From Acidovorax sp. NCPPB 4044 (GTDB lineage Bacteria; Pseudomonadota; Gammaproteobacteria; Burkholderiales; Burkholderiaceae_C): a stretch of DNA of 64,000 nt. Below are positions 10,015 to 30,012 of the stretch, in pieces. The DNA lies in NCBI RefSeq assembly GCF_028069655.1, contig NZ_JAMCOS010000001.1:1518001-1582000 (forward strand), read 5' to 3'. Position 1 is the first letter of the stretch; the number at the start of each line of letters is the position of its first letter. The notes beneath the pieces are model-generated. The model was not told where the DNA came from. It was given only the letters and a program-made list of their open reading frames with translations, and made no database searches. The translations under genes and the position numbers were made by a program.

Positions 10015-10587
10015 ATGAATCAACGCATAGGATACGCCCGCGTATCGACTGATGATCAGCACCTTGACCTGCAGCGCGACGCGCTCCAGCAGGCTGGGTG
10101 CGGCGTGATCTACGAAGAAGCGGCCAGTGGCAAGAATACAGCGCGGCCGGAGCTTGAACAGTGCCGCAAGGCGCTGCGGGCAGGGGATACCCTGGTGGTG
10201 TGGCGGTTGGATCGGCTCGGGCGCAGCCTGCCCGACCTGGTGCAGGTCGTGACCGATCTTGAGCAGCGTGGCGTCGGCTTTGAAAGTTTGACGGAAAAGA
10301 TCGAAACCGGCAGCGCGGCTGGAAAGCTGATTTTTCATGTGTTCGCAGCGCTGGCCGAATTTGAGCGTGGTTTGATCCGGGAGCGGACGCAAGCCGGTTT
10401 GGCCGCCGCGCGTGCCCGAGGTCGCGCCGGTGGCCGCAAGCCGAAGCTGGACGAGCAACAGGTGAGAGAGATCAAGGCCTTGCTGCGCGACCCCGATATA
10501 CACGTGGCAGACGTGGCCCGTCGCTATGGCGTATCCCGAACCACGATTTACAAGCATTGCGGCGTTGTGCAACCGCGTCATCAATAG
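10015..10587 (+). CDS. Serine recombinase / resolvase
   Basis: This 190-residue Tn3-type resolvase has the catalytic N-terminal domain IGYARVSTDDQHLDLQRDAL (nucleophile Ser near residue 10), the arginine-bearing VVWRLDRLGRS near residues 60-70, and EFERGLIRERTQAGL near residue 125. A C-terminal Hin-like helix-turn-helix follows (VADVARRYGVSRTTIYKHC). Resolvases of this type separate cointegrates or multimers. No transposase gene accompanies it. It lies immediately upstream of the restriction-modification operon and may mark the edge of that insertion. Confidence 0.9.
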   Translation: MNQRIGYARVSTDDQHLDLQRDALQQAGCGVIYEEAASGKNTARPELEQCRKALRAGDTLVVWRLDRLGRSLPDLVQVVTDLEQRGVGFESLTEKIETGSAAGKLIFHVFAALAEFERGLIRERTQAGLAAARARGRAGGRKPKLDEQQVREIKALLRDPDIHVADVARRYGVSRTTIYKHCGVVQPRHQ

Positions 10588-10616
10588 CGAAGAAACAAAA
10601 GAGAGAACAAATTTCC

Positions 10617-12737
10617 GTGTCCAGACTGACTGATTTGATTGCCAAGGCAAAAGCCAAGGATTCTGCCCTGGGGGCCGAGTTGGATCGAGAGTTCAAGATT
10701 CTGTCGTCGCGCCTTCCCTTTGGCCTGAACTTCGAACGGCATAGCCCGGAGGCGGTGGAATTGCCGCTGCGCCCGATTAGGAAGGGCGACAAGGTGCGTG
10801 TGCTGCCAGAGCGTGGCACAACCCGAAAGGGTGATCAGCGACTATGGCAGGTGAAAACCATCCACAAGGCCAAGAAAACGGCTGACTTGGAGTTGCTGGG
10901 TGCGGCAGAGATCGAAATGCAGACCGTGGCGCTGAATGATCTGGTGGTGGTGGCCGAGTTCCGCGACACCGTCTATCCGGGCCTGGTCAGTACCGGCAAG
11001 GTGCAGCGTGGTGGCGACAAGCCGTGCCATACGGTCATCAATGGCGAAAACTATCACGTCCTCAAGGCGCTGACTTATACCCATCGGGGCAAGGTGGATG
11101 CTATATACATTGACCCACCGTACAACAGTGGAGCAAGGGACTGGAAGTACAACAACGATTATGTGGAGGGTGATGACCTCTATAGACACAGTAAGTGGCT
11201 AGCGATGATGGAGCGGCGCCTCAAGGAGGCCAAAGTGCTACTGAATCCTGAGAATTCAGTGCTAATTGTCACCATTGATGAGAAAGAATATCTACGGTTG
11301 GGGTTGCTGTTAGAGCAGACGTTTGAGGATGCCAAGATAGAAATGGTTTCTTCAGTCATTAATCCGAAAGGGACAGGTAGAACTGGCGACTTCGCTCGTA
11401 CTAACGAGTTTTTGTTTTTTGTACGGTTTGGATCGGCGATAGTGGGAGGGATGCCAGATAGTGAAGCTATTGGTGCTGAAGTTGCCTGGGAAACAATGCG
11501 TCGACGCAATCTAGCTTCGATACGAGGCAGAAAGGGGAAAGGGGCTTGCGGGTCGAATCAGTTTTTCCCGATTTTCGTGGATGCTGAGACAGGAGCAATT
11601 GTTGGTCGTGGAGATCCTTTGCCGCCAGACGTTGCGAGGGAAACCATCAAGCCGCCACAAGGTGCTGTGGCCGTTTTCCCAATTCGGGCTGATGGCACTG
11701 AAATGAATTGGGAGTACACAGATACTGCATTTGATAACTGGTGGCCCAAAGGCTACATAAGAGCTAATGGGAAAAAAAGTGAGCCACAACCTTATATTAT
11801 TCAGCATTTGCCAAACAAGGTTCGCAAAGAAATTGCTACTGGCATAGTTACTGTCAACGGAAGGCGAGAGGATGGGGCTGTAATTGCAAAGTATGTTGAT
11901 GCAACGTTAAAACATGTGACAACGCAATGGGAGTTTACATCTCATAGTGCGGAACATGGTGGAACCGGGGTTCTTAAAGCGGTAATTCCAGAAAGAAGAT
12001 TCCCATTTCCAAAATCCCTGTACGCCGTAGAAGACGCTCTGCGGTTTTTCGTGGCTGACAAGCCTTATTCCGTTATCCTCGATTTCTTTTCAGGCTCTGG
12101 AACTACCGCTCATGCCGTTATGCGACTCAACAAGCAGGATGGCGGCTATCGTCAGTGCATTTCCATCACCAATAACGAAGTCGCTGCCCACGAACAAAGA
12201 AACTTGCGCGAAGCAGGTTTGCGCCCCGGCGATATAGAGTGGGAAAAGTGGGGTATCTGCGACTACATCACCAAACCCCGCGTTGCCGCTGTCATTACCG
12301 GCAAAACGCCAGACGGTGAACCCATCAAGGGCGACTACAAATTCACCGATGAATTTCCGATGGCCGATGGCTTTGAGGAAAACGCTGAGTTCTTTACGCT
12401 CACCTATGAGACGCCGGTATCTGTCAATTACAACCTGGCGTTTAACAGGGTTGCGCCGTTGCTGTGGCTGCGAGCTGGAGCGCAGGGCAGTCGCATAGAT
12501 AGTGTGCCCGGCGATGGCTGGGCAGTGGCAGACGCCTATGGATTGCTCAGCAATGTGGATGCGGCCACACCTTTTATCAGGGCGCTGGCCAAAGCCGCTG
12601 AAATCCGCATTGCCTATATCGTCACCGATGACGACCGCCGCTTCCAGGCTATTGCTAAGCGGTTGCCTGATGGCGTCGAGCCGGTACGCTTGTATGAATC
12701 GTATCTGACCAATTTCAGCTTCACCAACGGAGAGTAA
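10617..12737 (+). CDS. mod: Type III-like restriction-modification methyltransferase (Mod)
   Basis: A GTG start at 10617 (MSRLTDLIAKAKAKD) with GAGAG upstream is chosen over the in-frame 10557. The 706-residue protein is an adenine-N6 methyltransferase of beta arrangement: catalytic DPPY near residues 165-170 precedes the SAM-binding FFSGSGTT near 490-497. The target-recognition segment in between, roughly 11230-12060, is clearly more AT-rich than its flanks, which suggests its specificity domain was exchanged by transfer. It methylates one strand of the host recognition site and supplies specificity to Res, whose gene starts 3 bp after its stop. Confidence 0.88.
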   Translation: MSRLTDLIAKAKAKDSALGAELDREFKILSSRLPFGLNFERHSPEAVELPLRPIRKGDKVRVLPERGTTRKGDQRLWQVKTIHKAKKTADLELLGAAEIEMQTVALNDLVVVAEFRDTVYPGLVSTGKVQRGGDKPCHTVINGENYHVLKALTYTHRGKVDAIYIDPPYNSGARDWKYNNDYVEGDDLYRHSKWLAMMERRLKEAKVLLNPENSVLIVTIDEKEYLRLGLLLEQTFEDAKIEMVSSVINPKGTGRTGDFARTNEFLFFVRFGSAIVGGMPDSEAIGAEVAWETMRRRNLASIRGRKGKGACGSNQFFPIFVDAETGAIVGRGDPLPPDVARETIKPPQGAVAVFPIRADGTEMNWEYTDTAFDNWWPKGYIRANGKKSEPQPYIIQHLPNKVRKEIATGIVTVNGRREDGAVIAKYVDATLKHVTTQWEFTSHSAEHGGTGVLKAVIPERRFPFPKSLYAVEDALRFFVADKPYSVILDFFSGSGTTAHAVMRLNKQDGGYRQCISITNNEVAAHEQRNLREAGLRPGDIEWEKWGICDYITKPRVAAVITGKTPDGEPIKGDYKFTDEFPMADGFEENAEFFTLTYETPVSVNYNLAFNRVAPLLWLRAGAQGSRIDSVPGDGWAVADAYGLLSNVDAATPFIRALAKAAEIRIAYIVTDDDRRFQAIAKRLPDGVEPVRLYESYLTNFSFTNGE

Positions 12738-12740
12738 CGG

Positions 12741-15341
12741 ATGAAGTTCACGCTCAAAGACTATCAGCGCGACGCCGTCCGCGAATCCTTGAACAATCTG
12801 GGTAAGGCTCGTCGCCTGTGGCATGGCGAGGCTGATAGGACTGCTTTTTCACTGACTGCGGTCACCGGCGCGGGTAAGACTGTGATGGCGGCTGCCACAT
12901 TCGAGGCGCTGTTTCATGGTGATGATGAATTCAGATTCGATGCCGATCCCGGCGCTGTGGTGATCTGGTTCAGCGACGATCCCAATCTGAACCAACAGAC
13001 CCGCTTCCGCTTTATGGAGGCCAGCGACCGCATCAATTACACCGACCTGGTGGTTGTGGCAAACACCTTTAATAGACCGAAATTCCAGGCGGGAAAAATC
13101 TATTTTCTCAACACCCAAAAACTCAGCAAGAGCAGCTTGCTGGTGCGTGGCCATGATCCTGAAGAGTTGGCCGCCAAGCTGGACGGTACCTTCCCGGACA
13201 TGCGCCCCGACTTGCGAGCCTACACGATTTGGGACACCATCCAGAACACCATTGAAGACCCGGAATTGACGCTCTATCTGGTGCTGGATGAGGCGCACCG
13301 AGGCATGGGCAGTCAGACGGCAGCCAGTCAGAACGACAAGAGCACTATCGTCCAGCGGCTCATCAATGGCGTTGGAAGCGTGCCCGGTATCCCGGCGGTT
13401 TGGGGTATTTCGGCTACGGTGGAGCGTTTCAACAAGGCGATTGAGTCGGCAGGCAAGCATATCAAGCTGCCTAACGTGGAAGTTGACGCTTCAAAAGTGC
13501 AGGAGTCAGGCCTGATCAAAGACACCATCCTGCTGGATATTCCAGACAATGTTGGCGATTTCGATACCGTTCTGGTGCGGCGGGCGACCGATAAATTGAA
13601 GGAATCCAGTCTTGCCTGGAGCGAGTACTCCAAGCAGCAACAAGAAGCTCAGCTTGTCGTGCCGTTGATGGTCTTGCAGGTGCCCAACACGCCTGATCCC
13701 AATGAAATCGGGCGGGCGCTGGATACTATTTTCGAACGCTACCCTGAGCTGCCGTCTGCCAGCGTAGCGCATGTTTTCGGGGATCACACCACGCAGCGCT
13801 TCGGTAACCGCGACGTGCCCTATGTCGAGCCGCAGCGGGTTCAGGAATCGACCTGGGTGCGGGTGCTGATTGCCAAGGATGCCATCAGCACCGGCTGGGA
13901 TTGCCCGCGTGCCGAGGTCATGGTTTCTTTTCGTGCGGCTAGCGACAAGACGCACATCACGCAGTTGTTGGGCCGTCTGGTGCGTTCGCCGCTTGCCCGC
14001 CGTATCCCTGGTAACGACCGCCTGAATGCAGTGGACTGCTTGCTGCCGAGATTCAATCGCAAGGCTGTGGAGCAGGTGGTCGATGAGCTAACCACTGGCA
14101 ACGAGGCAGCTACGCCAGGGCGCGTGTTGATCGATTACAGCGAGGTGCGGCCGAACCCTGCTGTCGCGCCTGCCGTGTGGGAGGCATTCGAGGCGCTGCC
14201 GTCACAAACGCGGCCGCAACGAGGTGCCAGGCCCGCAGTCAGACTAACCGCGTTGGCGCACGAACTGGCGTCCGACGATATTCTGTCCGGCGCAGGCCGA
14301 CGGGCACACGCTGAGATGCACAGGGTTCTGGATGCGTTTCAAGCCGACAACGACGCCAAGATCAAGGCCAAGCGACAGTCGGTGCTGGTGGTGGACGGCA
14401 AGACTGTGAAGGCAGACCTGCGGGGTCAGGGCCGGAGCCTGGAACAGTTCTGGGAAGATGCCGATGTGGCCGTGATCAACGATGCTTACCGACGTGCGGC
14501 GCGCATCTTTAGCCCGGCAATTGCTCATTCCTATGTTGACCATCTGGCCGGCCAGCAAGCCGACCGCGACGAAGACCCGGAGGGCTTTCTTGAGGCCATC
14601 ATGGAGGCCCGCGTAACCGTTGCTGGCTTGGGGCTGGTGATGGAAGCACAGGCTTATTTCGATGCCGAGGCCGATAAGCTAACGAAGGACTGGCTGGTCA
14701 AGTATGGGCCGCAAATCAAGGCGCTCAGTGACGATCGACGGGAATCCTACAGGCAGATCATCGAAATGAGCACGGAGCCGCAGGACGTGGGCTTGCTCAA
14801 GCCCGAGGCTCGTTATGAGGCGACCAAGGCGAACGAGAACGGCAAGGTGAGAGTGCTCCCGGTCTGGGATGGCCACTTGCTGTGCAACGAGGCCGGCAAG
14901 TACCCCGCTGAACTGAATGACTGGGAGCGGACGGTCGTCGAGACGGAATCGGCAAAGCCGGAATTCTCGTTCTGGTATCGCAACCCGCAGCAGCCAGGGC
15001 AGGCTTCGCTGGGTATCGCCTATGAAAAAGCTGGGCAGTACGGAATTGTTCGCCCAGACTTTCTGTTCTTTGCCACGCAGGGGGATGGCTCCCTTGTCAT
15101 TGATCTGGTTGATCCGCATGGGCTGCATTTGAGCGACGCGCTGGTCAAGCTGCAAGGCTTGGCGCTGTACGCAGCCAACCATGCCGATGCCTATCGCCGG
15201 ATCGAGTCCATTGCCCAGGTGAAGGGCAGCGACAAACTGCGCGTGCTTGACTTGAAACGGCCGGAAGTGCGGGATGCGATTGCCGTGGGCCAGGATGCAG
15301 AGGTTCTGTTCAGCAGCGGGTTGGCAGATGATTACCAGTGA
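12741..15341 (+). CDS. res: Type III-like restriction helicase-nuclease (Res)
   Basis: This 866-residue DEAD/DEAH helicase shows Walker A TGAGKT near residues 42-47, DEAH in VLDEAHRGMG near 181-186, and helicase motif VI-like HITQLLGRLVRSPLARR near residues 413-429. The C-terminal region contains RPDFLFFATQGDG followed by VIDLVDPHG near residues 771-790, a possible divergent PD-(D/E)xK nuclease core. Res subunits translocate or slide from unmethylated sites and cleave invading DNA together with Mod. It starts 3 bp after mod. Its last 14 bp overlap a small frame that bridges to the TrlF gene. Confidence 0.85.
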   Translation: MKFTLKDYQRDAVRESLNNLGKARRLWHGEADRTAFSLTAVTGAGKTVMAAATFEALFHGDDEFRFDADPGAVVIWFSDDPNLNQQTRFRFMEASDRINYTDLVVVANTFNRPKFQAGKIYFLNTQKLSKSSLLVRGHDPEELAAKLDGTFPDMRPDLRAYTIWDTIQNTIEDPELTLYLVLDEAHRGMGSQTAASQNDKSTIVQRLINGVGSVPGIPAVWGISATVERFNKAIESAGKHIKLPNVEVDASKVQESGLIKDTILLDIPDNVGDFDTVLVRRATDKLKESSLAWSEYSKQQQEAQLVVPLMVLQVPNTPDPNEIGRALDTIFERYPELPSASVAHVFGDHTTQRFGNRDVPYVEPQRVQESTWVRVLIAKDAISTGWDCPRAEVMVSFRAASDKTHITQLLGRLVRSPLARRIPGNDRLNAVDCLLPRFNRKAVEQVVDELTTGNEAATPGRVLIDYSEVRPNPAVAPAVWEAFEALPSQTRPQRGARPAVRLTALAHELASDDILSGAGRRAHAEMHRVLDAFQADNDAKIKAKRQSVLVVDGKTVKADLRGQGRSLEQFWEDADVAVINDAYRRAARIFSPAIAHSYVDHLAGQQADRDEDPEGFLEAIMEARVTVAGLGLVMEAQAYFDAEADKLTKDWLVKYGPQIKALSDDRRESYRQIIEMSTEPQDVGLLKPEARYEATKANENGKVRVLPVWDGHLLCNEAGKYPAELNDWERTVVETESAKPEFSFWYRNPQQPGQASLGIAYEKAGQYGIVRPDFLFFATQGDGSLVIDLVDPHGLHLSDALVKLQGLALYAANHADAYRRIESIAQVKGSDKLRVLDLKRPEVRDAIAVGQDAEVLFSSGLADDYQ

Positions 15342-15462
15342 CCGTCTAAGCGCAATAACGAATCAGCACATTCGAAATGGATCGATTAACGAAGTTATCT
15401 ATGATCCAAATACCGCGCAACTGGCAGGCTACGCGCGGACTCACTATAAGGATGGACCATGA
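15328..15462 (+). CDS. Possible 44-residue linker peptide between res and trlF
   Basis: A frame beginning MITSDRLSAITNQHIRNGS starts inside res, 14 bp before its stop codon, and ends with TGA overlapping the ATG of the next gene (ATGA at 15459-15462). It fills the only gap in the operon. The spacer is more AT-rich than its neighbours and the ribosome-binding site is weak, so this may be a coupling device or remnant of a longer gene and not a functional protein. No homologous family recognised. Confidence 0.3.
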   Translation: MITSDRLSAITNQHIRNGSINEVIYDPNTAQLAGYARTHYKDGP

Positions 15463-18134
15463 TGGAAAATCTGCGACCGAAGCAGCCAGAGGCTCGATCT
15501 ATGGTCTTTGCAGAAGGGGCGTTGTGGGTCCGCGCTGACTTTCATCTGCATACCCGAGCGGACCGTGAATTCAAGTTCACGAGCGATGACAACTTTTACA
15601 ACAGCAACTATGTGGATGCATTGGAGAAAGCGGGCATCCGATTGGGCGTCATCACCAACCACAATAAGTTCGACTTCGAAGAATTCAAGGCACTGAGAAA
15701 GACTGCCCAGAAGAAGGGTATTGCGTTGCTGCCAGGCGTTGAGTTGTCGGTCAATGACGGGGCCAATGGTATCCACACGCTGGTTGTCTTTTCCGATGAT
15801 TGGTTGGCCGATGGTCATGACCATATCAATCCCTTCTTGGGCGTCTCGTTCAAAGGAAAAGTCCCAGCCCAGTATGAGCAGGAAAATGGTCGATCTTCGC
15901 TGTCGCTGGTGAACACCATCGAGGAGTTGGAAAGCTACCACCGCGACTTCTTTCTCGTCTTTGCTCATGTCGAAGCGCCGAGTGGGCTTTGGGCCGAGCT
16001 GGATGGGGGGCGTCTTGCCGAGCTGGGCCGAAATGAGTTATTTCGCCGCCGCACGCTTGGCTTTCAGAAGGTGCGCACGTACAACAAGTTGCAAGAGAAA
16101 AACAAACCCTGCCGGACTAAAGCGCAGCAGCATCTAGGTGACTGGTATCCCGCCGAACTCGAAGGCTGCGACGCCAAATGCATAGAAGACATTGGTCAGG
16201 GCAAAGCCTGTTATCTCAAATTGGGCGAGCTGTCCTTTGAGGCGGTCAAGTTTGCCTTGAGCGATCCCGCTGCGCGGGTCGCCACGGAGCCGCCCAAGCA
16301 TCAGGCGTCGCACATCCGCAGCATCCACTTCGACGGGGGCATCCTCGATGGTCAGACGCTGCACTTCTCTTCCGAACTCAACACGCTGATCGGCATCCGG
16401 GGCAGCGGAAAATCATCCATCCTGGAGGCAGTACGCTACGCCCTCGACATTCCACGCGGCGAGAAGGCGCAGGACACCAGGTACAAGGATGAGTTGATCC
16501 GCCATACCCTTGGCAGCGGCGGCAAGGTGACGCTGACAGCATGTGACGTGTACGGACAGGAATTCACCATCTCCCGCATCTTCCGCGAAGCCCCGAATGT
16601 CTATTTGGGCGGCAAGTTGCAACCCGGCGTGTCGATCCGGGAGACTGTACTGCGCCGTCCGATCTACTTCGGCCAGAAGGACCTTTCCAGCACCGGCGAA
16701 GGCTTCGAGACCGATCTGGTGGAAAAGCTGGTTGGTGATAAGCTGCGTGTGCTGCGTGACGAAATAAAGGTTCAACGCCAGCGCGTGCGTGACGCTGCTC
16801 AGCGCTGGCTCAAGCTCAGCAACACGGCCGAACTCAAGCGCGACTTCGAGACCCAACTAAATGATGCCAACTTCCGTCTGACCAAGTTCGCCGAGCACGG
16901 TGTCGCCGATAAGCTCCAAAAGCGACTTGGCTTCCACCAGGACGCCACAGCGCTCGCGCGCATGATGGAGCGGGCAGACAGCTTCATTCTCGCTCTAGGA
17001 AGTCTGATTGCCGAGCATGAGGACGAGCTGCGGAACGCAACGAGCTACGTTTCCAAGCAGAACCCGGATTTCTTCACGGCCTACTACGCCGAGTTCTCCA
17101 ACCTCGTTGCCAAGGTCGATCAGCTCAAGCAGATCGAGCGAGAAGCGAACGTCATTGCAGCTCGCCTCAAGACCAAACAGGGCGAATTTGAAGGCGCAAG
17201 CAGGAGCCTTCAGGAGGAGTTCGCACAAGTCGAGCGCCAACTGGCTCAGGAGCTCAAGCAAACCGGCATGACTGCCATCCAGCCGGACGACTTCCTGGCC
17301 CAGCAGCAGCGCAAAACCAAGGCGGAGCAAATGCTTCAGGCGCTGGCCAAGCAGGAATCACAGCAGACCAGCATCCGCGACGCGCTGTTTGCCGAGATCG
17401 ACAAACTCAATGAACTATGGCTGAGCGAGTTCAACACCATCAAGGTAGAGCTGGACCGCGTGAACGCTGGCCACACCGCCCTGCAGATCGAAGCGGACTT
17501 CAAGGGTGACAAGGAAGCCACCATCAGCTTCATGCAGCAGATCTTCAAGGGCAGCAACATCCGCGAAACCACGCTGCGCGCAGTTATGGAGGACTATGCA
17601 GACTTCGGCGGCCTCCTGCGTGCCCTGCCGGGAGCCTTGGCGAAGGCCGGCAGCACCCCCGAGGTCTTCGAAAAGACTTTCATGCAGAACCTGACCGATT
17701 TCGTCACCTGGCAGGTGCCCAACCGCTTCGTCATCCGCTATCGCGGCAAAGAGTTGAAGCACCACTCTCTCGGGCAGCGCGCTTCGGCGCTGTTGCTGTA
17801 CGTGCTCAGCCAACGCCAGAACGACGTGATCATCATCGACCAACCGGAAGACGATCTGGACAACCAGACCATTTACGACGATGTGATCAAGCTGCTACGG
17901 GAAATGAAGCCTCACGCCCAGTTCATCTTTGCCACCCACAACGCCAACTTCCCGGTGCTGGGTGACGCGGAACAGGTGCACGCCTGCCAATACCAGGACG
18001 AGAAGGTCGCCACGCGAAGCGGCAGCATCGACGCTCGCCCGGTGCAGGACGCCATCATCAACATCATGGAAGGAGGCCAGGAAGCCTTCAACCGTCGCAA
18101 AGAGGTCTACAACCTATGGAAACCACAGAGCTGA
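15459..18134 (+). CDS. TrlF-type PHP phosphoesterase / AAA-SMC-like ATPase
   Basis: The 891-residue protein joins an N-terminal PHP metal-dependent phosphoesterase domain (HLH in RADFHLHTRAD, residues 29-31; ITNHNKFD; LLPGVELSV) to a RecN/SMC-like ATPase. Walker A IRGSGKSS is near residues 312-319, a long coiled-coil-like stretch lies between about 430 and 690, and VIIIDQPEDDLDN near 790 carries Walker B. The late histidine switch is ATHNANFPVLGDAEQ. Members of this group are annotated as TrlF-family AAA-like ATPases. The arrangement resembles nuclease-ATPase defence proteins that process DNA ends. AAGGA lies six bases upstream of the start. The last 19 bp overlap the AlbA_2 gene, so co-translation is likely. 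Confidence 0.75.
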   Translation: MMENLRPKQPEARSMVFAEGALWVRADFHLHTRADREFKFTSDDNFYNSNYVDALEKAGIRLGVITNHNKFDFEEFKALRKTAQKKGIALLPGVELSVNDGANGIHTLVVFSDDWLADGHDHINPFLGVSFKGKVPAQYEQENGRSSLSLVNTIEELESYHRDFFLVFAHVEAPSGLWAELDGGRLAELGRNELFRRRTLGFQKVRTYNKLQEKNKPCRTKAQQHLGDWYPAELEGCDAKCIEDIGQGKACYLKLGELSFEAVKFALSDPAARVATEPPKHQASHIRSIHFDGGILDGQTLHFSSELNTLIGIRGSGKSSILEAVRYALDIPRGEKAQDTRYKDELIRHTLGSGGKVTLTACDVYGQEFTISRIFREAPNVYLGGKLQPGVSIRETVLRRPIYFGQKDLSSTGEGFETDLVEKLVGDKLRVLRDEIKVQRQRVRDAAQRWLKLSNTAELKRDFETQLNDANFRLTKFAEHGVADKLQKRLGFHQDATALARMMERADSFILALGSLIAEHEDELRNATSYVSKQNPDFFTAYYAEFSNLVAKVDQLKQIEREANVIAARLKTKQGEFEGASRSLQEEFAQVERQLAQELKQTGMTAIQPDDFLAQQQRKTKAEQMLQALAKQESQQTSIRDALFAEIDKLNELWLSEFNTIKVELDRVNAGHTALQIEADFKGDKEATISFMQQIFKGSNIRETTLRAVMEDYADFGGLLRALPGALAKAGSTPEVFEKTFMQNLTDFVTWQVPNRFVIRYRGKELKHHSLGQRASALLLYVLSQRQNDVIIIDQPEDDLDNQTIYDDVIKLLREMKPHAQFIFATHNANFPVLGDAEQVHACQYQDEKVATRSGSIDARPVQDAIINIMEGGQEAFNRRKEVYNLWKPQS

Positions 18135-19291
18135 TCGACCTGCTCAGCCGGGGCGAGGACAGTCGGCAGCAGTTCAAGACGGACATCAACAACGCCGACG
18201 CCTTGGCAGCAGAGATCGTTGCCTTCAGCAACACCGCTGGTGGTCGCATCTTCATTGGGGTGAACGACGACGGTTCGGTGCGCGGTCTATCCGGCGCCGA
18301 CGTTGCTCGTCTCAACATGCTCATCGCCAACGTGGCCTCGCAGGTCGTGCGTCCCGCCGTGAACCCGCTCACGGAAAACGTGCCCCACCCGGCAGGCACG
18401 GTGCTGGTGCTCTCCATCGCTGAAGGCGTCAACAAGCCCTACATGGACAAGAACGGCGCGATTTGGGTGAAGAACGGCTCGGACAAGCGCCGCGCCACCT
18501 CGCGCGAGGAATTGCAGCGCCTGTTCCAGCAGGCGGGTTTGGTGCACGCCGACGAAACGCCCGTAGCGGGCTTGAGCGCGGGCGATGTGGACATGCCCTA
18601 TTTCGAAACCTTCTTCGAGCAGCAATTCGGTGAGCCGCTCGCCCAGCATAACCAGCCGCTGCCGCAGTTGCTGACCAATATGAACCTGATGAACCAGGGG
18701 CAGCTCAACGTGGCGGGCGGTCTGCTGTTCGCCAAATCACCGCACTACGCGCTACCCGCCTTCGTCGTCAAGGCCGTCGCCTTTGTCGGCACCCAGATTG
18801 AGGACGAACGCTACATCGACAGCCGCGACATCGTCGGCAAGCTGGCCGACGTGTTCCAGCAGACGCTGGGCTTTATCGTCGCTAACACCCGCGCCGCGCA
18901 GGGCGAGCAGGGCTTCAACTCCCAGGGGCAGCCTGAGATTCCCCGCATCGTCTGGGAAGAACTGGTCGCCAACGCCCTTATTCACCGCGACTACTTCGTC
19001 AGCGCGCCGATCCGCGTACTGGTCTTCGCGGATCGTGTCGAGATCATCAGCCCTGGCCACCTGCCCAACAACCTGACTATCGAGAACATCAAGGCCGGCA
19101 ACTCCAATATGCGCAACCCCATCCTGGCGTCCTTTGCCGCCAAGCTCCTGCCTTATCGCGGATTGGGTAGCGGCCTGCTGCGCTCACTGAGGGCATGGCC
19201 GCAGATCGAACTCATCGATGATCGGGCCGGCAACCTGTTCAAGGCTATCGTGGCGCGTCCCAGTGTGCTGGAGCTAGCCGGAGGTTCTTGA
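18116..19291 (+). CDS. AlbA_2 (Schlafen-like) / HATPase_4 protein
   Basis: This 391-residue protein starts within the trlF gene. The N-terminal domain, about residues 1-130, is an AlbA_2/Schlafen-type nucleic-acid-binding domain (SRQQFKTDINNADALAAEIVAFSNTAGGRIFIGV). The C-terminal half carries the divergent ATPase motif typical of its partner domain: VWEELVANALIHRDY near residues 282-296, RVEIISPGHLPNNLT near 310-324 and RGLGSGLLRSL near 350. Such proteins are usually called putative transcriptional regulators, but Schlafen-like domains can also be RNases. The physical coupling to TrlF and a type III R-M pair suggests a defence or regulatory role in that operon. Confidence 0.8.
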   Translation: METTELIDLLSRGEDSRQQFKTDINNADALAAEIVAFSNTAGGRIFIGVNDDGSVRGLSGADVARLNMLIANVASQVVRPAVNPLTENVPHPAGTVLVLSIAEGVNKPYMDKNGAIWVKNGSDKRRATSREELQRLFQQAGLVHADETPVAGLSAGDVDMPYFETFFEQQFGEPLAQHNQPLPQLLTNMNLMNQGQLNVAGGLLFAKSPHYALPAFVVKAVAFVGTQIEDERYIDSRDIVGKLADVFQQTLGFIVANTRAAQGEQGFNSQGQPEIPRIVWEELVANALIHRDYFVSAPIRVLVFADRVEIISPGHLPNNLTIENIKAGNSNMRNPILASFAAKLLPYRGLGSGLLRSLRAWPQIELIDDRAGNLFKAIVARPSVLELAGGS

Positions 19292-19353
19292 CTGCTCGGC
19301 TGGGAGGAAGTGGATAGGTTTCTGGTTTTTCGGACCGTCGCTATGGTGTCAAC

Positions 19354-19551
19354 ATGAAACTGCACGAAGAGAACGAACCGTTCTTCATCACTGAGGGCAT
19401 GGCCGCCGAGATGGCTGCTGCCGGCTACGAGTTCAAGCCTCCTGGCCATGCCAGAACGAAGAGCGTCCGCGATCTGTACGGATGGCAGCCCGGGGAGACT
19501 CTGGAAGAGGCCATTGCCCGGCACCAGCGCAGGCAGTGTTCATCCTCTTGA
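19354..19551 (+). CDS. Small hypothetical protein near island junction
   Basis: The frame encodes 65 residues beginning MKLHEENEPFFITEGMAAEM and including KSVRDLYGWQPGETLEEAIARH. Composition is protein-like but there is no clear Shine-Dalgarno and I recognise no family. It lies between the restriction operon and the integrase region and might be a truncated chromosomal gene cut by insertion of the element. Confidence 0.35.
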   Translation: MKLHEENEPFFITEGMAAEMAAAGYEFKPPGHARTKSVRDLYGWQPGETLEEAIARHQRRQCSSS

Positions 19552-19951
19552 TCTGAGCATGGCACTTTTCATGGCATCAATTAGGTGTCAATTCATAAGT
19601 TGTTGCTATAAAACGAGTTTTTATGCTTATAGATAATCGAGTGGGAGTGAAATCAGGTCCTTCGGGGACTATCGCTACCTATCGAAAATCCGACGTAACG
19701 TGTTGATTTCAAAGGAAATACGTCACGGCAGCTATCGGCGACTATCGCCGGGCAGCGAAACGGATTGACGGTAGAGGTGACGGTAGAAACCGGAGGCCGG
19801 ATTAAGACCTCCTTGTTTACTATCGAGACCAAATCGGTCTTTGACGGTAAATCACTCCTCTGGAAAGCTTGTTTCATGCGGCTTTCCAGGCATCAGCAGG
19901 TCTCCTGACCCCTGACGGTAAAAGCCGTCATGAACAGGAGGAAAAACCTCG
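19552..19951. promoter_or_regulatory. Integrase leader with arm-site-like repeats and probable left element end
   Basis: The 400 bp before int contain two families of short repeats. TGACGGTA(G/A)A occurs at 19766, 19778, 19842 and 19913, with a fifth copy inside the gene at 20031. CTATCG occurs five times (around 19669, 19679, 19732, 19742 and 19820). Direct repeats of this type beside a tyrosine recombinase gene are typical arm-type binding sites. CTTTTCAT at 19564 differs by one base from the TTTTTYAT core reported for Tn4371-family elements, so the left end may be near there, but the core is not proven. GGAGG just before 19952 is the int ribosome-binding site. Confidence 0.5.
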
Positions 19952-21208
19952 ATGCTTACCGACACCGCGCTGCGCAATTTGAAGCCTAAGTCATTGACTT
20001 ATAAGGCTTCTGACCGGGATGGGATGTACGTGACGGTATCGCCCACCGGTACCGTCACCTTCCGCTTCGATTACCGTCTCAACGGCCGCCGCGAGACCCT
20101 GACCATCGGCCGCTACGGGCCGGCGGGCATTTCGCTGGGGATGGCCCGTGAAAAGCTGCTGGACGCCAAGAAGGCCGTCGCCCAGGGCAAGTCTCCGGCG
20201 CACGAGAAACAGCGCGAGAAGCGCCGCCTGACCGCCGCCAAAAACTTCGGCGACATGACCGCCCAGTGGCTGGCCGGTGCACGGATGGCCGACAGCACGC
20301 GAGCGATGCGCAAGAGCATCGTCGATCGGGACATCCTGCCAGCGTTCCAGAACCGCCTGCTCAACGAAATCACCGCCGATGACTTGCGCGCCTTGTGCGG
20401 CAAGGTGAAGGGGAGGGGCGCCCCGGCCACCGCGGTGCATGTCCGCGACATCGTGAAGCAGGTCTATGCCTTCGCCATGCTGCATGGGGAGAAGGTGGAC
20501 AACCCGGCGGCCGACGTGGGCGCGGCCTCGATTGCGACCTTCGTACCCAAGGACCGTGCCTTGTCGCCGTTGGAGATCCGTTTGATGTCGCGGCAGATGG
20601 AGTCGGTAGCCACGTATCCGACCATCCGCTTGGCGCTGCGCATGATCCTGCTGACGCTGGTGCGCAAGAGCGAGCTGATCGAGGCCACCTGGGATGAGGT
20701 TGATTTCGAGAACGCGACCTGGACCATTCCGAAGCAGCGGATGAAAGGGCGCAATCCGCATGTGGTCTACCTGTCGCGCCAGGCGTTGGACATCCTGGTG
20801 GCGCTGCATACCTGCGCGGCTGGCTCGAAATTCGTGCTGCCGTCGCGCTATGACTCCGACCGCTGCATGTCCCACGCGACCCTCAACCGGGTCACTCAGA
20901 TCGTGGCGCAGCGGGCCAAGGCTGCAGGTCTGCCTCTGGAGCCGTTCACCGTCCATGATCTGCGCCGCACGGGCTCGACGCTGCTCAACGAGATCGGGTT
21001 CAACCGCGACTGGATCGAGAAGTGCCTTGCGCACGAGGAGGGGCGTTCTTCGCGCTCGATTTACAACAAGGCCGAATACGCCGAACAGCGGCGCCACATG
21101 CTGCAGGAGTGGGCCAGCATGGTCGATGCCTGGATCGACGGGCAGACCTACGTTCCAAAGCTGATGCCGGAGCACGTGGTCGTGCCGGTGTTGAGTTCGT
21201 TGGCCTGA
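19952..21208 (+). CDS. int: Tyrosine site-specific integrase
   Basis: This 418-residue integrase has the DUF4102-type arm-binding N-terminus (SLTYKASDRDGMYVTVSPTG), a SAM-like core-binding domain, and a catalytic domain with Arg in LVRKSELIEATW near residue 237, HDLRR near 334-338, and the nucleophile Tyr in RSIYNKAEY near residue 371. It would excise and integrate the ICE at its attachment core. It stands at the left end of the mobile region, transcribed inward, with repeats resembling arm sites upstream. GGAGG before 19952 fixes the start. Confidence 0.92.
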   Translation: MLTDTALRNLKPKSLTYKASDRDGMYVTVSPTGTVTFRFDYRLNGRRETLTIGRYGPAGISLGMAREKLLDAKKAVAQGKSPAHEKQREKRRLTAAKNFGDMTAQWLAGARMADSTRAMRKSIVDRDILPAFQNRLLNEITADDLRALCGKVKGRGAPATAVHVRDIVKQVYAFAMLHGEKVDNPAADVGAASIATFVPKDRALSPLEIRLMSRQMESVATYPTIRLALRMILLTLVRKSELIEATWDEVDFENATWTIPKQRMKGRNPHVVYLSRQALDILVALHTCAAGSKFVLPSRYDSDRCMSHATLNRVTQIVAQRAKAAGLPLEPFTVHDLRRTGSTLLNEIGFNRDWIEKCLAHEEGRSSRSIYNKAEYAEQRRHMLQEWASMVDAWIDGQTYVPKLMPEHVVVPVLSSLA

Positions 21209-23560: not shown

Positions 23561-24046
23561 ATGGCAATGGCGTTGTCCGAAGATCAGATTTAGTATCTCA
23601 ACCGTCATGCGCCGGGCGAGGCTGTAGCACGCGCGCTGTTCGAACTACTGCGCAATGACCATGACTTGCTCGGCATCGACGCAAATGAACGATCCATCAC
23701 CTTTCGCTTCGCGATGTATCTCCAACAATATTTTCCTGATTGGAGCGTGGATTGCGAATACAACCGAGACGGCATTGAACCAAAGCGGCTCGGACATCTG
23801 GAGCTGTACCCGGACAGCGAAGACGTTGAGGCGAAGACCGTATTCCCAGATGTGATCGTTCATCGGCGAGGCACAAGAAGGAACTTTCTGGTCTTGGAGT
23901 TCAAGAAGTCAACGAGCCGCGTTGACCGACAGATCGACCTTCGGAAACTTTGGGGCTACAAGCAGCAGCTTGGTTACGAGCATGCCCTGTTTGTGGAGGT
24001 CGGCACCGAGGGGCAGGCGATCATCACCATGCTTGAATGGGCTTGA
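23561..24046 (+). pseudogene. PD-(D/E)xK nuclease gene interrupted by an in-frame amber codon
   Basis: From ATG 23561, 6 bp after the previous stop, the frame reads MAMALSEDQI, then TAG (23591-23593), then YLNRHAPGEAVARALFELLR and continues open to 24046. The downstream part contains FPDVIVHRRG followed by FLVLEFKKSTSR, a PD...ExK nuclease signature, and DLRKLWGYKQQLGYEHALFV. The coding character is continuous across the TAG, which could arise from CAG by one transition, so I read it as a nonsense mutation. Restart at TTG 23666 would give 126 residues that keep the active site but lose the N-terminal helices. Sequencing error or natural suppression are alternatives. Confidence 0.6.
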
Positions 24047-24064
24047 GAGGCGTCAGGGAAACTA

Positions 24065-24880
24065 ATGACACGTATCCCACTGTTCAGTTCGCAGCATCTT
24101 GAAGCTGCGTGTCGGGTGCTCGCCGATACCGAGCGCGGCTTGAGTGGTACGCAAATCGAGCGCTTGCTGCAAGAGATCGAGGTCGCGGACACTTCGCCAG
24201 GCATGACAAAGTGGAAGCGGCTGTTCAATGCGTTGGCTGGTGCGCAGAACCAGCATCAGTTCGGCAACCATCTCATCATGTTCATCAACCGTGCGATGAA
24301 CCCAGTGAACTACGCCCGCGACGCTGCGGCGTTCGCATGGCGGCGCGACGAACTCAATGTGGTCCTTGCCTTCTCCGGCTTTTACGTGCGCGAAGATGGC
24401 AGGGTTGGGTACGCTGATAAGGCCACAACGCTTGATGCAGCGCGCGCACGAGCTGGACGGCTTAAGGCCGCGCTGGAAAGCCGCGTCGTCCACGCGGAGG
24501 TGCTGAACTATTGCCGTGCCGAACTGCTGGACGAAAACTACTTCCATGCCGTTTTCGAGGCAACGAAAGGCGTTGCAGAGCGGATTCGCCTACTGTCGGG
24601 TTTGAACGGTGATGGCGCTGACCTGGTGAACAAAGCATTCGCGGGCCAGCAGCCCGTTCTTGTCTTGGGGCCACTCTCCACCGAGTCCGAGAAGAGCGAG
24701 CAGAAAGGCTTTGCCAATTTGCTGATTGGCCTGTTCGGTGCGGTGCGCAATCCTCTGGCCCATGCACCCAAGACGAATTGGCCCATGTCCGAACAAGACG
24801 CACTGGACATCCTGACCCTGGTATCGCTGATTCACCGCAAGCTGGACGGCACCATGAAGGCAACTGCCGTTTCTCCGTAA
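24065..24880 (+). CDS. TIGR02391-type (Ymh) HEPN protein
   Basis: This 271-residue protein has a TIGR02391/Ymh-type C-terminal domain: VLNYCRAELLDENYFHAVFEA near residues 150-170, then GFANLLIGLFGAVRNPLAHAPKTNW. The RNPLAH segment (Arg228 to His233) is the R-x4-H motif of HEPN ribonucleases. The N-terminal 130 residues are a helical region of unknown role (LSGTQIERLLQEIE). HEPN proteins often act as abortive-infection RNases. It is third in an operon of nucleases and another HEPN gene. Confidence 0.72.
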   Translation: MTRIPLFSSQHLEAACRVLADTERGLSGTQIERLLQEIEVADTSPGMTKWKRLFNALAGAQNQHQFGNHLIMFINRAMNPVNYARDAAAFAWRRDELNVVLAFSGFYVREDGRVGYADKATTLDAARARAGRLKAALESRVVHAEVLNYCRAELLDENYFHAVFEATKGVAERIRLLSGLNGDGADLVNKAFAGQQPVLVLGPLSTESEKSEQKGFANLLIGLFGAVRNPLAHAPKTNWPMSEQDALDILTLVSLIHRKLDGTMKATAVSP

Positions 24881-24997
24881 GGGTACCCATCGCAGATGGC
24901 TGCTGACAACGCGAGGGAAGCCACCGATGGGCTGTGGAGAAAGCACAGGTCTCATAAGAGCCAAGCTGAGTTAGATTGTTCTTTTCAAGGGGCAGCA

Positions 24998-25759
24998 ATG
25001 AACTATGAACTCTTGGAGGATTCGGCATGGCGCGGCCCTCTCATGCTGGCGATGCAGCGCGCCATCGTGGCCGATTTCAACTCGACGGATTGGCAAGAGC
25101 TTGGCTACCTGACAGGGTTCCACGACTACATTCGTGGACACGCCCGGCTGCTGCGAAGTTTGGGGTTCGGGGACAAAGACTACGGTGCCTGTGTCTTTCA
25201 GGCGCTCGAGTATTTTGCGAACAACGATATCCAGGCCTTGGTTGCCGTCGTAGATCATCCTAAGGTCCGCCCGCATCTTGAACGGGATCAGGCGGCCAAA
25301 CTGATTGAACTGGGATACCGGGCGGGGCATGTTCCCGCTGTGCTGCCGACTGTTTCTGCCTCGGAGGTCGTGCGTCTCGCTCTGCAAGACGCCGATCACT
25401 TGCTTTCTACATCGGGGGCGCCGAGTGCGATTGATCGCCTTCACACCGCCATGCACGGATACCTGAAGTCCACTTGCCAGGACTGTGCGATCTCGCTCCC
25501 CGAAGGGGCGACGCTCACGCAGGCCTACAAAGCGCTTCGTGCTCACCATCCAGCATTGCAGTCGCTAGGGGCGCATGACGGGGAGATCGGCAGAGTCCTG
25601 GCGTCATTTGCATCCGTTCTCGATGCGCTCAACACCCTCCGCAACCATGGAAGTGTCGCCCATCCCAACGACGACATTGTTGAGCGGGCCGAGGGCGAAT
25701 TGGTGGTCAATGCCGTCCGAACGATCTTTCACTACTTGAGCCAGAAGATTCGTTCGTGA
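24998..25759 (+). CDS. Abi_C (abortive infection) HEPN protein
   Basis: AAGGGGCAGC lies just before the start at 24998. The 253-residue protein has an N-terminal module (LGYLTGFHDYIRGHARLLRS) and an Abi_C-type C-terminal domain: DRLHTAMHGYLKSTCQDCAI near residue 150 and ALNTLRNHGSVAHPNDD, where Arg215 and His222 form an R-x6-H HEPN motif. Abi_C proteins are linked to phage exclusion. It ends the operon and converges on the CHAT-domain gene. Confidence 0.75.
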   Translation: MNYELLEDSAWRGPLMLAMQRAIVADFNSTDWQELGYLTGFHDYIRGHARLLRSLGFGDKDYGACVFQALEYFANNDIQALVAVVDHPKVRPHLERDQAAKLIELGYRAGHVPAVLPTVSASEVVRLALQDADHLLSTSGAPSAIDRLHTAMHGYLKSTCQDCAISLPEGATLTQAYKALRAHHPALQSLGAHDGEIGRVLASFASVLDALNTLRNHGSVAHPNDDIVERAEGELVVNAVRTIFHYLSQKIRS

Positions 25760-25892: not shown

Positions 25893-28800
25893 TTACGTGC
25901 CCGGCGGTCGGACAAGCAAAGGGTCCCCATAAACCGTCATCGCCAGAGAAAACTGTGGCTCGCGTTCGCGCCTGGCAGCCATTCGCTTGTTCGCCTCGTG
26001 GCACGCATCCATGGCCGTAGCGCCCTGTTCCCAATGTGCCAAGAATCCCTCAAGCCAAGGTCCGGCTGCGAGCGATTCCAGTGGCCAGGGGGAGGCGATG
26101 ACGGTACGGCACCCCTGTTCCAGCAGCATCTTCGGCAACCCCACCGTAGTGCTGGCGCTAGGATGCCGATCCATGCGTCCGCCGCTGCATACGAAGAGGA
26201 TTACCAGTTCGACCCGGGCCAGCGCTTGGGCGAGCGCCAGCGGGGATTCCTTCAGCGCGCCCTCGTCAACGATACGCCGAAAGTACCTCTCCCCCCGTGC
26301 CAGCTGCCCATGGGTCGTCACGATCGCCATCTGTGCACCCTCCAAGCCTTGAGGTAGGTCGCGCGAAGTGTCCAAGGTTATACGATAAGAATCCAGATGC
26401 GCCTCGAGCATTCCTCTGACGACGCTCATCGCGTCTAACTCTGCCGGGTCGCCTGCGTCGGAGAGCCACGCCACGCGGCGGTCACCATCTGTCCTTGTCC
26501 TCTGGCGGATAGCCTCGAGCCAAGTTAGAGACGGCACCATGCCAATTGCGGTGTCGTAGCCGATGAGGTCGCCGTCGGGCCGCACTACCAAGTTGAACGC
26601 GACCTGCGCAACTTCCGGCTCGGCCACGATCAAGACGCGAGTACCCTGCGGCAGGGGGATAGTGAAAGGGCGCATCGATTCATAAAACTCGCCGTCCCCC
26701 ACACTCCGAAACCGCGACCCGTTGCCATCGACGTCTACGCGCTTCCGGGGGTCGATCAATCCATACCTGAACGGGTAGGTCTGCGACCAAGCTCGCAGTC
26801 GGTCCCTTGCGGTAGTTGAAGATCTCGGGGCTCTCTGGACTTCCGCACCATCGGGCTCCACGATGGTGGCGACCAATTCGCCCGCGCTGTCGTGTGCCAG
26901 CATCAGCACGGAGACTTGATGCTCCTGAGCGAGCGACCGTGCAAAGCGGATCGGGCCGTCCACAGTCAACGGAGCTGGCGGAGCCTCCAGCGTCAGTCCG
27001 CGATCAGCCAGCAACTCAATCGCAAGGCAGGCGTCCTGCACTGTCACTTCCGGATCGGCAGGCGCCAGAAGCCGAGGGGCAACCAGGTTGGTGGCGTAGG
27101 CGTCGGTGGGAGCGTCCGATGCATACCGAGCGCGCGCCGTGCGATTGTGCAGGTCGACCAGCTGCGCCGCCGTGGGCCGTTTTGCGGAGATTGCCTGCAG
27201 GGTGAGAGCGGCTTCGGGCCCGATAGCCGTCAGCGCCTGTTGCTTGGCCGCAGCTGCTTCCACGGTCAGTTGGCCACCCGCACGCTCGTACAGACCCAGT
27301 GCCTGCACGAAGAGATATGCCGCCGCGAACAGCTCATCCCCCAGCCGGACGGCGTCGAGAAACACTCGCTGGCAGTTCTCCTGGAAAGTCTGCAGAGCCG
27401 CGACTTCCATGTTCGCCCCCCGGCTCATTTGCAGGGTCAGGCCGACGACCTCCAGTCGGTGCTGCATAGCTTCAGTCATTCCGAGCTTGCCGAAAAACGA
27501 GCTGCATTTTTCCAGCAGCACCTCGGCTGCGTCGTGAAGACCCATGTCGCGAAGTGTTCGTAGGTGCGTGTAAGTCTCGTGGTACAGATTGCTCGCGGGC
27601 AGCCGCGCGCGGGTGGCCCCGGCACATGCGATAGCGAGGAGGGCATCAGTGGCATCATGCGCCCGCTGATAGATGTCGGCGTAGGCGCTCCAGGCGAGGC
27701 GCCTTCGTCCGGGCTGGTCACCAGCGATCTCGAGAATGAGTTCGGCCAGGTCCCGTGCGCGCTGGTGATTGTTCATCAGAGAAAACTTCACCGACAGAGC
27801 GCGCAAGGCTTGCAGGTCGTCGTAGGTGCTTGGGATATGGCGCGCCAGCGGCGCCAGGATGTGTGCCTGAAAGCTCAAGTCTTCGAGATCGTCCGCCTGG
27901 TCGTACTCCACGACGCCGTGTTCAATGAAGTTCCGGATGAGCCGCGCAAGCCCAACTGCATCCGCGCCCACCACACCGGCAGGAAGTGGCACACGCGGGT
28001 CGACCATCACCTGTTGCTTCGCCCACTCTTTCCAGCGTTGCTGGAAATTCTGAAATTCCTCGTCGGTTGCCACGTCGACGCCGGATTCTTCCGCGATCGG
28101 CTCAGGCATGTTGTCCGCGAACTCTGCAGCTACCGCAGCGATAAGGGCCAAGCCCTCGCGGCCTGCAAACTCGACGGACAGTGTTCTGCGGAGCAAGGCT
28201 CGGATTTCCTTGTCTCCGGGGTGTTGTCCCAGATGCTCGACGAGCAACTTTAGCGGCTCCACATACACACCGAGCTGTTCCCGACTGGCCGCTTCCACCA
28301 GGAACAACGCGCGGATGGTGCGCACAATGAGCTTGGCGGCAGCAGGAGCAAAGCGAGTGCCTGGAATCAGCAGTCCGGCGAGGCCCCAAGCGGCCTGCGG
28401 ATCGCCGGACACCTCCGCATGCGTCGCGGCACACATGGCAGCAAGATCATGGTGCTGCGGCCATTGGGTCCGCACTTCCTCCAGCAGCACCTGGTAGTCG
28501 ATGTCGGTCTCCGGTGCGAGTCTTTCCGCGAGTAGCGTGTGGACCTCCGTGAACCCGGTCCGTGCGATGGGGCTGGCCTTTACCTCGTACGCATTCTGTC
28601 GGCAGATCTGGAGCATGCGAATCTCGCAGTCGTACTGCAGGTCTCGGTTCGCAGGGAAGAGGGTCTTGAATCGCGTCCAGCCCCGCTCCACCAAATCCGC
28701 GTCGCGCATCGACGTGGCAATTTGCAAGCAGGCCGACAGCGACTCCTCCTGCGATATTTCGCCAAGGGCTCCGTCGATCAAGCGCTTGGCCGTCGGTAGA

Positions 28801-29708: not shown

Positions 29709-30012
29709 AACCACGGTCCCTTTGTCGTCGTTGTGATTTCGAAAGTCTGCCATGGCCGCCCGAGCACGAACGCGTCGAGCTGCTCACGCGACGACTTGCA
29801 GGCCTTAGGCAATGCTGGCCGGCAGTTAGGCACGAGTGATAGTGGACGGCTCGCTGGCCCTTTCATCGTGCCACGGCGTTCTCGCCGTCAAGGGCTGCGC
29901 ATGCCGTGCACGCTTGCGGCCTGCGGCCGTCGTTGCCCCTTGACTGCTTGTGCTGCGCCGTGACCCGGACGGGCTGGGCAATTCCGCCCGGCCACCTTCC
30001 AGGGACTGCACC
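29709..30012. promoter_or_regulatory. Divergent leader of DUF2958 gene with GTCAAGGG/CCCTTGAC stem
   Basis: The 300 bp between the CHAT gene and the first DUF2958 gene hold an inverted repeat, GTCAAGGG (29887-29894) and CCCTTGAC (29937-29944), enclosing GC-rich sequence with GCGGCCTGCGGCC. The same closing stem sequence recurs before the DUF932 gene, suggesting a shared structured leader. No coding sequence recognised. Confidence 0.5.

Follow-up and report, generated by a model that had tools for sequence, protein, structure and literature searches.

A type III Mod–Res pair beside a portable TrlF–TrlG module with exchangeable restriction partners in Acidovorax sp. NCPPB 4044

The window analyzed here, a stretch of 64,000 nucleotides from Acidovorax sp. 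NCPPB 4044 (contig NZ_JAMCOS010000001.1, positions 1,518,001 to 1,582,000), contains an operon in which a type III methyltransferase (Mod), its helicase and putative nuclease (Res), a 44-residue frame, a PHP-ATPase of the TrlF family and an AlbA_2/HATPase_c_4 protein, TrlG, follow each other. Comparison with relative loci (designated by L-numbers) shows that TrlF and TrlG form a portable module with exchangeable restriction-modification (R-M) partners, of which Mod–Res is the one found here. The features of the locus, in window positions, are:

10015–10587, plus strand: serine recombinase (resolvase; PF00239, PF02796), the left edge of the exchangeable slot
10556–10616, no strand: left junction zone, where resolvase similarity stops and Mod similarity begins (10612–10618)
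10617–12737, plus strand: Mod, GTG start, 706 residues; PF01555; PADLOC MTase_III PDLC03645, 948 bits, profile positions 1–709 of 709
12741–15341, plus strand: Res, 866 residues; PF04851, 45.5 bits
15328–15462, plus strand: 44-residue frame, the larger part of which is a scar (15363–15462)
15342–15362, no strand: right junction, between the Res stop and the onset of similarity to a GIY-YIG gene
15459–18134, plus strand: TrlF, 891 residues; NCBIfam NF045780, 585 bits against a cut-off of 350
18116–19291, plus strand: TrlG, 391 residues; PF04326, 72 bits, and PF13749, 49 bits

The proteins of the operon and their published relatives

The successive gaps between these genes are 3, −14, −4 and −19 base pairs (bp), and none of the genes has an internal stop. 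Rechecked coordinates and frames, together with the family assignments (Pfam, NCBIfam, PADLOC), agree with the genes, order and spacings given in an earlier note on this DNA. That note also held the genes to be expressed together: the overlaps make co-expression likely, while the transcription signals add nothing to it, with 0 sites in a sigma-70 scan versus 3.4 expected and terminator-like sites at chance level (14 versus 10.2 expected, both strands), those on the plus strand all being intragenic.

Mod is an N6-adenine methyltransferase of the beta class, with DPPY preceding FxGxG and a full-length match to its profile, and resembles EcoP15I Mod and Mbo45V. Its target-recognition region is probably encoded at about 11440–11985, where similarity at the DNA level to the nearest relatives is lost. 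Res has intact TGAGKT and DEAH motifs, and the helicase residues T42, G43, G45, K46, T47, D183, E184, A185 and H186 are invariant in 39 sequences. Its putative nuclease motif, PD...D[LI]VDPH, is atypical in that PD and PH are present and the canonical ExK is absent, and this kind of motif is maintained across the family; comparison with the PDB gave no match. Type III enzymes recognize an asymmetric site, cut 25–27 bp away and require two head-to-head sites. Mod is rare, occurring in 4 of 369 genomes of the class with the window's genome included (E limit 1e-60); among phages, 2 of the 144 matching records had a site spanning at least 80% of the query.

TrlF combines a PHP domain (HxH, H, E, H, H, DxK; motif counts over 58 sequences) with an SMC/Rad50-like ATPase bearing a long coiled coil, and its predicted model has a mean pLDDT (predicted local distance difference test) of 81. 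At the same E limit, and again counting the window's genome each time, it is found once among 100 relatives and in 2 of the 369 genomes of the class. TrlG has a Schlafen AlbA_2 domain at residues 14–127, with the fold of Schlafen-type RNases, and an HATPase_c_4 domain at 297–359; E14 is invariant in 53 sequences, and D52 is conserved at a level of at least 90% in 42.

Homologous to these two proteins are the TrlF and TrlG encoded by the temperature-restriction locus (TRL), the trlR-trlF-trlG operon of the insect pathogen Photorhabdus laumondii (PMC7554251, cited here and below from the part available). Photorhabdus TrlG has AlbA_2 at 14–128 and HATPase_c_4 at 298–365 (PMC7554251), and in the window, too, such a protein directly follows a trlF-family gene. 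Eleven of the 13 residues altered in the Photorhabdus mutants are identical in the window's TrlG with one numbering-offset change, a count made by position numbers (no offset through residue 36, an offset of −1 from residue 75) that rises to 12 of 13 if either offset is allowed anywhere. The module is already known in print as TRL; its portability, with R-M partners that can be exchanged, is the real finding here. The window differs from TRL in that its pair follows Mod–Res and no trlR was seen upstream, although the rest of the window was not searched with trlR; among the fetched loci, Yersinia ruckeri trlR matches only L004 and L140. The TRL paper, in the part available, reports growth arrest at 36 °C and not phage defense. 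We also considered trlR as kin of the helix-turn-helix gene that stands before hsdR and obtained no alignment. On Y. ruckeri plasmid pYR3, a relative of the locus carries, between trlR and trlF, a pair of small genes with a type I methylase annotation (PMC7554251); its TrlF and TrlG have the protein accessions of L004 and are, respectively, 52% and 60% identical to the window's.

Recurrence of the four genes and assembly of the window locus

The earlier note had suggested that the four genes make up a composite system and proposed a neighborhood search for their co-occurrence; this search, run here, found the quartet in the window only, so that, in the loci searched, the rarity elsewhere that the note had named as refuting its view is observed. 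Neither Mod nor Res of the window was detected in any of 61 TrlF loci (tblastn, E 1e-3), which come from a TrlF query against one genome per species and are dominated by close relatives. Conversely, neither TrlF nor AlbA_2 occurs in the stretches examined of 53 loci with clear Mod relatives, drawn from viral contigs, eight plasmids and other genomes; 32 of these extend at least 3 kb past Res, and the set omits the distant, short L069–L086 and plasmid matches beyond the eight. Since 47 of the 53 Mod loci have Res (6 lack it) and none has TrlF or AlbA_2, Mod–Res can be called self-sufficient; with both counts at zero in the loci searched, the quartet is rejected as a recurring type III composite. 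A true composite in which TrlF and TrlG are subunits required for Mod–Res restriction draws on the tight overlaps in the window and on the nearest second case, L143, where some 7 kb separate a TrlF–TrlG pair (52% and 59%) from a stretch with weak likeness to Mod (63 bits; 27% over 196 residues). We regard it as highly improbable: neither set of loci supplies a second example, the 47 Mod–Res pairs lack TrlF and TrlG in the stretch examined, and a scar, together with near identity to an MmeI-context locus, shows that the assembly is recent.

The scar lies in the 44-residue frame. Blastn homology to eight relatives, in which an MmeI-type methylase and a helicase stand before a T5orf172/GIY-YIG gene, begins at 15363 in 8 of 8. 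DNA alignment and comparison of C-termini match residues 13–44 of the frame to the last 32 residues of the GIY-YIG protein of these relatives, and 15363–15462 is still in the GIY-YIG frame, with the same 4-bp overlap onto the trlF start. The frame, counted earlier as a gene of its own, is a scar and no independent gene, being mostly the 3′ remnant of a T5orf172/GIY-YIG gene, an intact copy of which Pfam identifies in L011. The shared C-terminus, reading frame and overlap exclude a small regulator or antitoxin gene; an origin in hsdS was replaced by T5orf172/GIY-YIG on the Pfam evidence. An end of the GIY-YIG gene is also retained in L020, which has no MmeI genes.

The other edge of the slot is marked by the resolvase, which matches L013, L023, L026 and L049 at 71–76% (blastn); similar recombinases stand directly 5′ of trlF in L023 and L026 (and in L031 by protein cluster) and before the MmeI operon in L013 and L049. 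Because Mod similarity starts at 10612–10618 after the resolvase, Res ends at 15341 and the GIY-YIG remnant runs from 15363, Mod–Res has replaced the MmeI-type methylase, helicase and GIY-YIG gene between resolvase and trlF. The exchange is recent, judging from the backbone at 16543–19142, which is 98–100% identical to the MmeI-context locus L009 in 13 of 13 200-base blocks. Moreover, trlF is a mosaic: its PHP region (15743–16342) is 95–100% identical to the type-I-context locus L006 and only 72–85% to L009, whereas the remainder is mostly 94–100% like L009, so that the module itself recombines across contexts. Exchange of the PHP region between type-I- and MmeI-context lineages raises the possibility that this domain is matched to the R-M partner. 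Within the two slot-end stretches tried there are no repeats of at least 14 bp; a third stretch, 19240–20000, has one 14-bp direct pair, and the longest word common to both junctions is 7 bases direct and 6 inverted, the same as in shuffles.

R-M partners and neighbors of the TrlF–TrlG module

An AlbA_2 gene follows TrlF in 52 of the 55 loci with at least 400 bp beyond TrlF, being matched only in pieces in L008, L047 and L062. What stands around this pair varies. DNA similarity to 15 type-I-context loci (84–92% in 13, 76–77% in two) is confined to about 15504–15525 through 19260, ending near gene borders. In three annotated type I loci the order is hsdR-trlF-trlG-hsdS-AAA-hsdM, with the pair embedded between hsdR and hsdS by 4-bp overlaps; one is on an IncA plasmid, and the other two, on an IncC plasmid and an Escherichia coli chromosome, are both beside Tn7-like transposition genes. 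The region is matched in 39 of 5426 E. coli genomes, both genes being present in all 20 records listed of the 41 matching. In L027, L035, L048 and L052, hsdM and hsdS precede trlF and an hsdR-like gene comes after, two of these loci being without trlG. The eight MmeI-context loci have the methylase, a DEAD helicase and the T5orf172/GIY-YIG gene before trlF (Pfam on L011), and the L011 methylase is classed as type IIG by PADLOC; in L042, trlG is followed by genes for a ResIII/T5orf172 protein and an Eco57I-type methylase. On a Pseudomonas plasmid and a Yersinia plasmid the pair has no R-M genes.

A census of the 30 loci with at least 4 kb on each side (31 of the 61 are excluded for short flanks) yielded 12 type I, 6 MmeI/helicase and 1 Eco57I-type context, and 11 without any probed gene; the MmeI class rests on MmeI and helicase probes with no GIY-YIG probe, the HsdR_L048 probe is a rough slice, and 'none' means no probe match, as for L012, which has a type II-like gene (HNH) immediately upstream. 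An Eco57I match begins in L036, which falls short of the census length. On a quick TrlF tree of 58 rows, 16 of them unlabelled, the contexts need 17 changes, against a minimum of 6 and a shuffled mean of 23.4, a value as low being reached in 0 of 200 shuffles.

The main rival to a functional link is shared residence in defense islands, with TrlF–TrlG as an independent defense module that lodges in the same islands and insertion sites as R-M genes and overlaps its neighbors through gene packing. The 11 loci without a probed R-M gene, the pair free of such genes on the two plasmids, the self-sufficiency of Mod–Res and the window itself, which is a defense island with PD-Lambda-3 and an AbiJ-like gene adjoining, all speak for it. 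In the three annotated type I loci, however, the pair lies inside the operon with 4-bp overlaps and is not merely close; several unrelated R-M types are joined to it; and residence beside type I systems in 12 of 30 loci far exceeds a rough chance of less than 1% per locus, estimated from the single ResIII match of HsdR strength in the 5.3 Mb of the window's genome, although near-copies among the 12 inflate the figure. We consider such passenger clustering possible but doubtful.

The surroundings of the module include two further features of the window:

19354–19551, plus strand: 65-residue frame, which recurs 3′ of trlG in relatives
19952–21208, plus strand: tyrosine integrase (Pfam), downstream of the operon

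The 65-residue frame is 92–98% conserved in four of the eight MmeI-context loci (L009, L011, L043 and L051) and also occurs in L010, L017, L020 and L044 (49–89%); the N-terminal 172 residues of the integrase are 95% identical to the integrase of L010, which also has TrlF–TrlG. Genes like guaB or guaA upstream of the module in L012, L020, L024, L030 and L044 suggest a shared integration site (guaA in L044 and guaB in L012 were recognized by eye, the others by protein cluster). Farther along the window lie the PD-Lambda-3 A and B pair (23666–24880; PADLOC 273 and 593 bits), followed by the AbiJ-like gene (24896–25759) and, on the minus strand beside these defense genes, a gene for a 1286-residue protein with a C-terminal CHAT domain (25893–29753). 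Elsewhere, a 1315-residue NACHT-domain protein (PADLOC PDC-M54A, 41 bits) is encoded directly after TrlF–TrlG in L023 (13842–17789); a fused AriAB, PARIS-like gene (PADLOC 464 bits) follows TrlF without TrlG in L057 (12974–14584); and on the Vibrio tubiashii plasmid of L146 (1–10613) TrlF is the last gene of a run opening with brxL, so it may also accompany BREX.

A possible back-up role in restriction

That TrlG limits growth is supported by the literature: Photorhabdus strains with trlG mutations or with the operon deleted grow at 36 °C, a plasmid-borne operon restores the block, and the locus is induced on temperature upshift (PMC7554251). With a small margin of confidence, we favor reading the recombinant locus as one in which a portable TrlF–TrlG pair provides abortive back-up to the R-M system of the slot. 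TrlG would be a growth-arrest effector whose Schlafen-like AlbA_2 domain acts on RNA or on the machinery of translation; TrlF, with its ATP-driven SMC-like body and PHP phosphoesterase, would sense infection, damage to DNA or the condition of the restriction complex, either holding TrlG in check or triggering it; and the pair would serve whichever R-M system occupies the slot. The earlier note's proposal of a PHP-ATPase and a Schlafen-type protein as back-up to restriction survives in this form, as a two-gene module that recurs beside unrelated R-M types and has a published growth-limiting member, and not as a fixed quartet. More tentatively, the pair could be a guard independent of R-M type, monitoring type I, type IIG-like and type III enzymes alike through their activity or their DNA products and arresting growth through the Schlafen-like protein when restriction fails, the temperature restriction of Photorhabdus being an autoimmune misfire.

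Growth arrest as a defense back-up to restriction has plausible parallels. PrrC and RloC each unite an ATPase and an anticodon nuclease in one protein, and Ppl is a single-gene system. PrrC offers the likeness of a translation-directed growth-arrest gene inside an R-M operon, that of the EcoprrI type Ic system, and RloC is its homologue; the window differs in having two proteins, AlbA_2 and PHP domains, and a module found beside several R-M types. PARIS (AriA–AriB) couples an ABC-type ATPase to an effector answering anti-restriction; there, however, AriB is a Toprim protein, and the similarity of TrlF to AriA models is limited to the surroundings of the C-terminal ATPase motifs and reaches 37.5 bits at most. 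In the portion available, a recent review describes both PrrC and PARIS as R-M guardians. TrlF shares PHP and an SMC-like ATPase with Ppl (156 bits to NF042955), far under the Ppl cut-off of 1000 bits. Also similar are the genes for a Schlafen RNase, a minimal histidine-kinase-like ATPase and a winged helix-turn-helix protein beside BREX (PMC12839542), where AlbA_2/Schlafen with such an ATPase forms a back-up effector adjoining a defense core; that system is linked to BREX, and 'TrlF', 'PHP' and 'AlbA' do not occur in the main text. All three terms are likewise absent from the main text of PMC13092281. Searches of the literature on PHP/Ppl, Schlafen and rlo genes returned nothing specific on TrlF among the matches listed; searches on the TrlF family itself and on heat restriction in phage defense gave, among the matches listed, no paper that ties TRL to phage defense or R-M guarding, most subscription papers and preprints lying outside the search.

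Several observations weigh against a back-up role. RNase activity of TrlG is unsure, because Gln19, invariant in the 53 sequences, probably occupies one position of the set of three acidic catalytic residues expected of Schlafen-type RNases. TrlG is absent after TrlF in L035, L052 and L057 (3 of 55), and TrlF relatives of 48–50% identity on three plasmids (L144, L145 and L146) have no TrlG in the stretch examined. The 11 well-flanked loci without probed R-M genes count here too, and the contexts cluster on the tree beyond chance, so that switching is frequent and repeated but not free. The scar frame, still feeding the trlF start, may keep a coupling role. In the literature we found no phage test of TrlF or TrlG. 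In the portion of the TRL paper available (PMC7554251), no trlF mutation was selected in Photorhabdus, and TrlF may therefore not control TrlG; the Photorhabdus locus is a three-gene operon without R-M, and an R-M system is therefore not obligatory; and the authors' view is physiological temperature control, not defense. The type I methylase remnants of pYR3 were not recovered with an HsdM probe (best E 1.2).

On the view of the TRL authors the module would be a temperature or stress growth regulator, here trapped in an island, for which the growth of trlG mutants at 36 °C and the induction on upshift (PMC7554251) both argue. We think this unlikely: repeated residence in R-M operons and on mobile elements, and the PARIS-like AriAB gene beside TrlF in L057, fit defense better, and the heat arrest could itself be the misfire of a guard.

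A published but unexplained heat-arrest locus is now tied to restriction systems of several classes. The scar in the window is a clean record of the replacement of an R-M system beside a conserved partner, and the loci together suggest that different R-M operons can take up a single back-up module, which can then be compared across type I, MmeI-type and type III partners.

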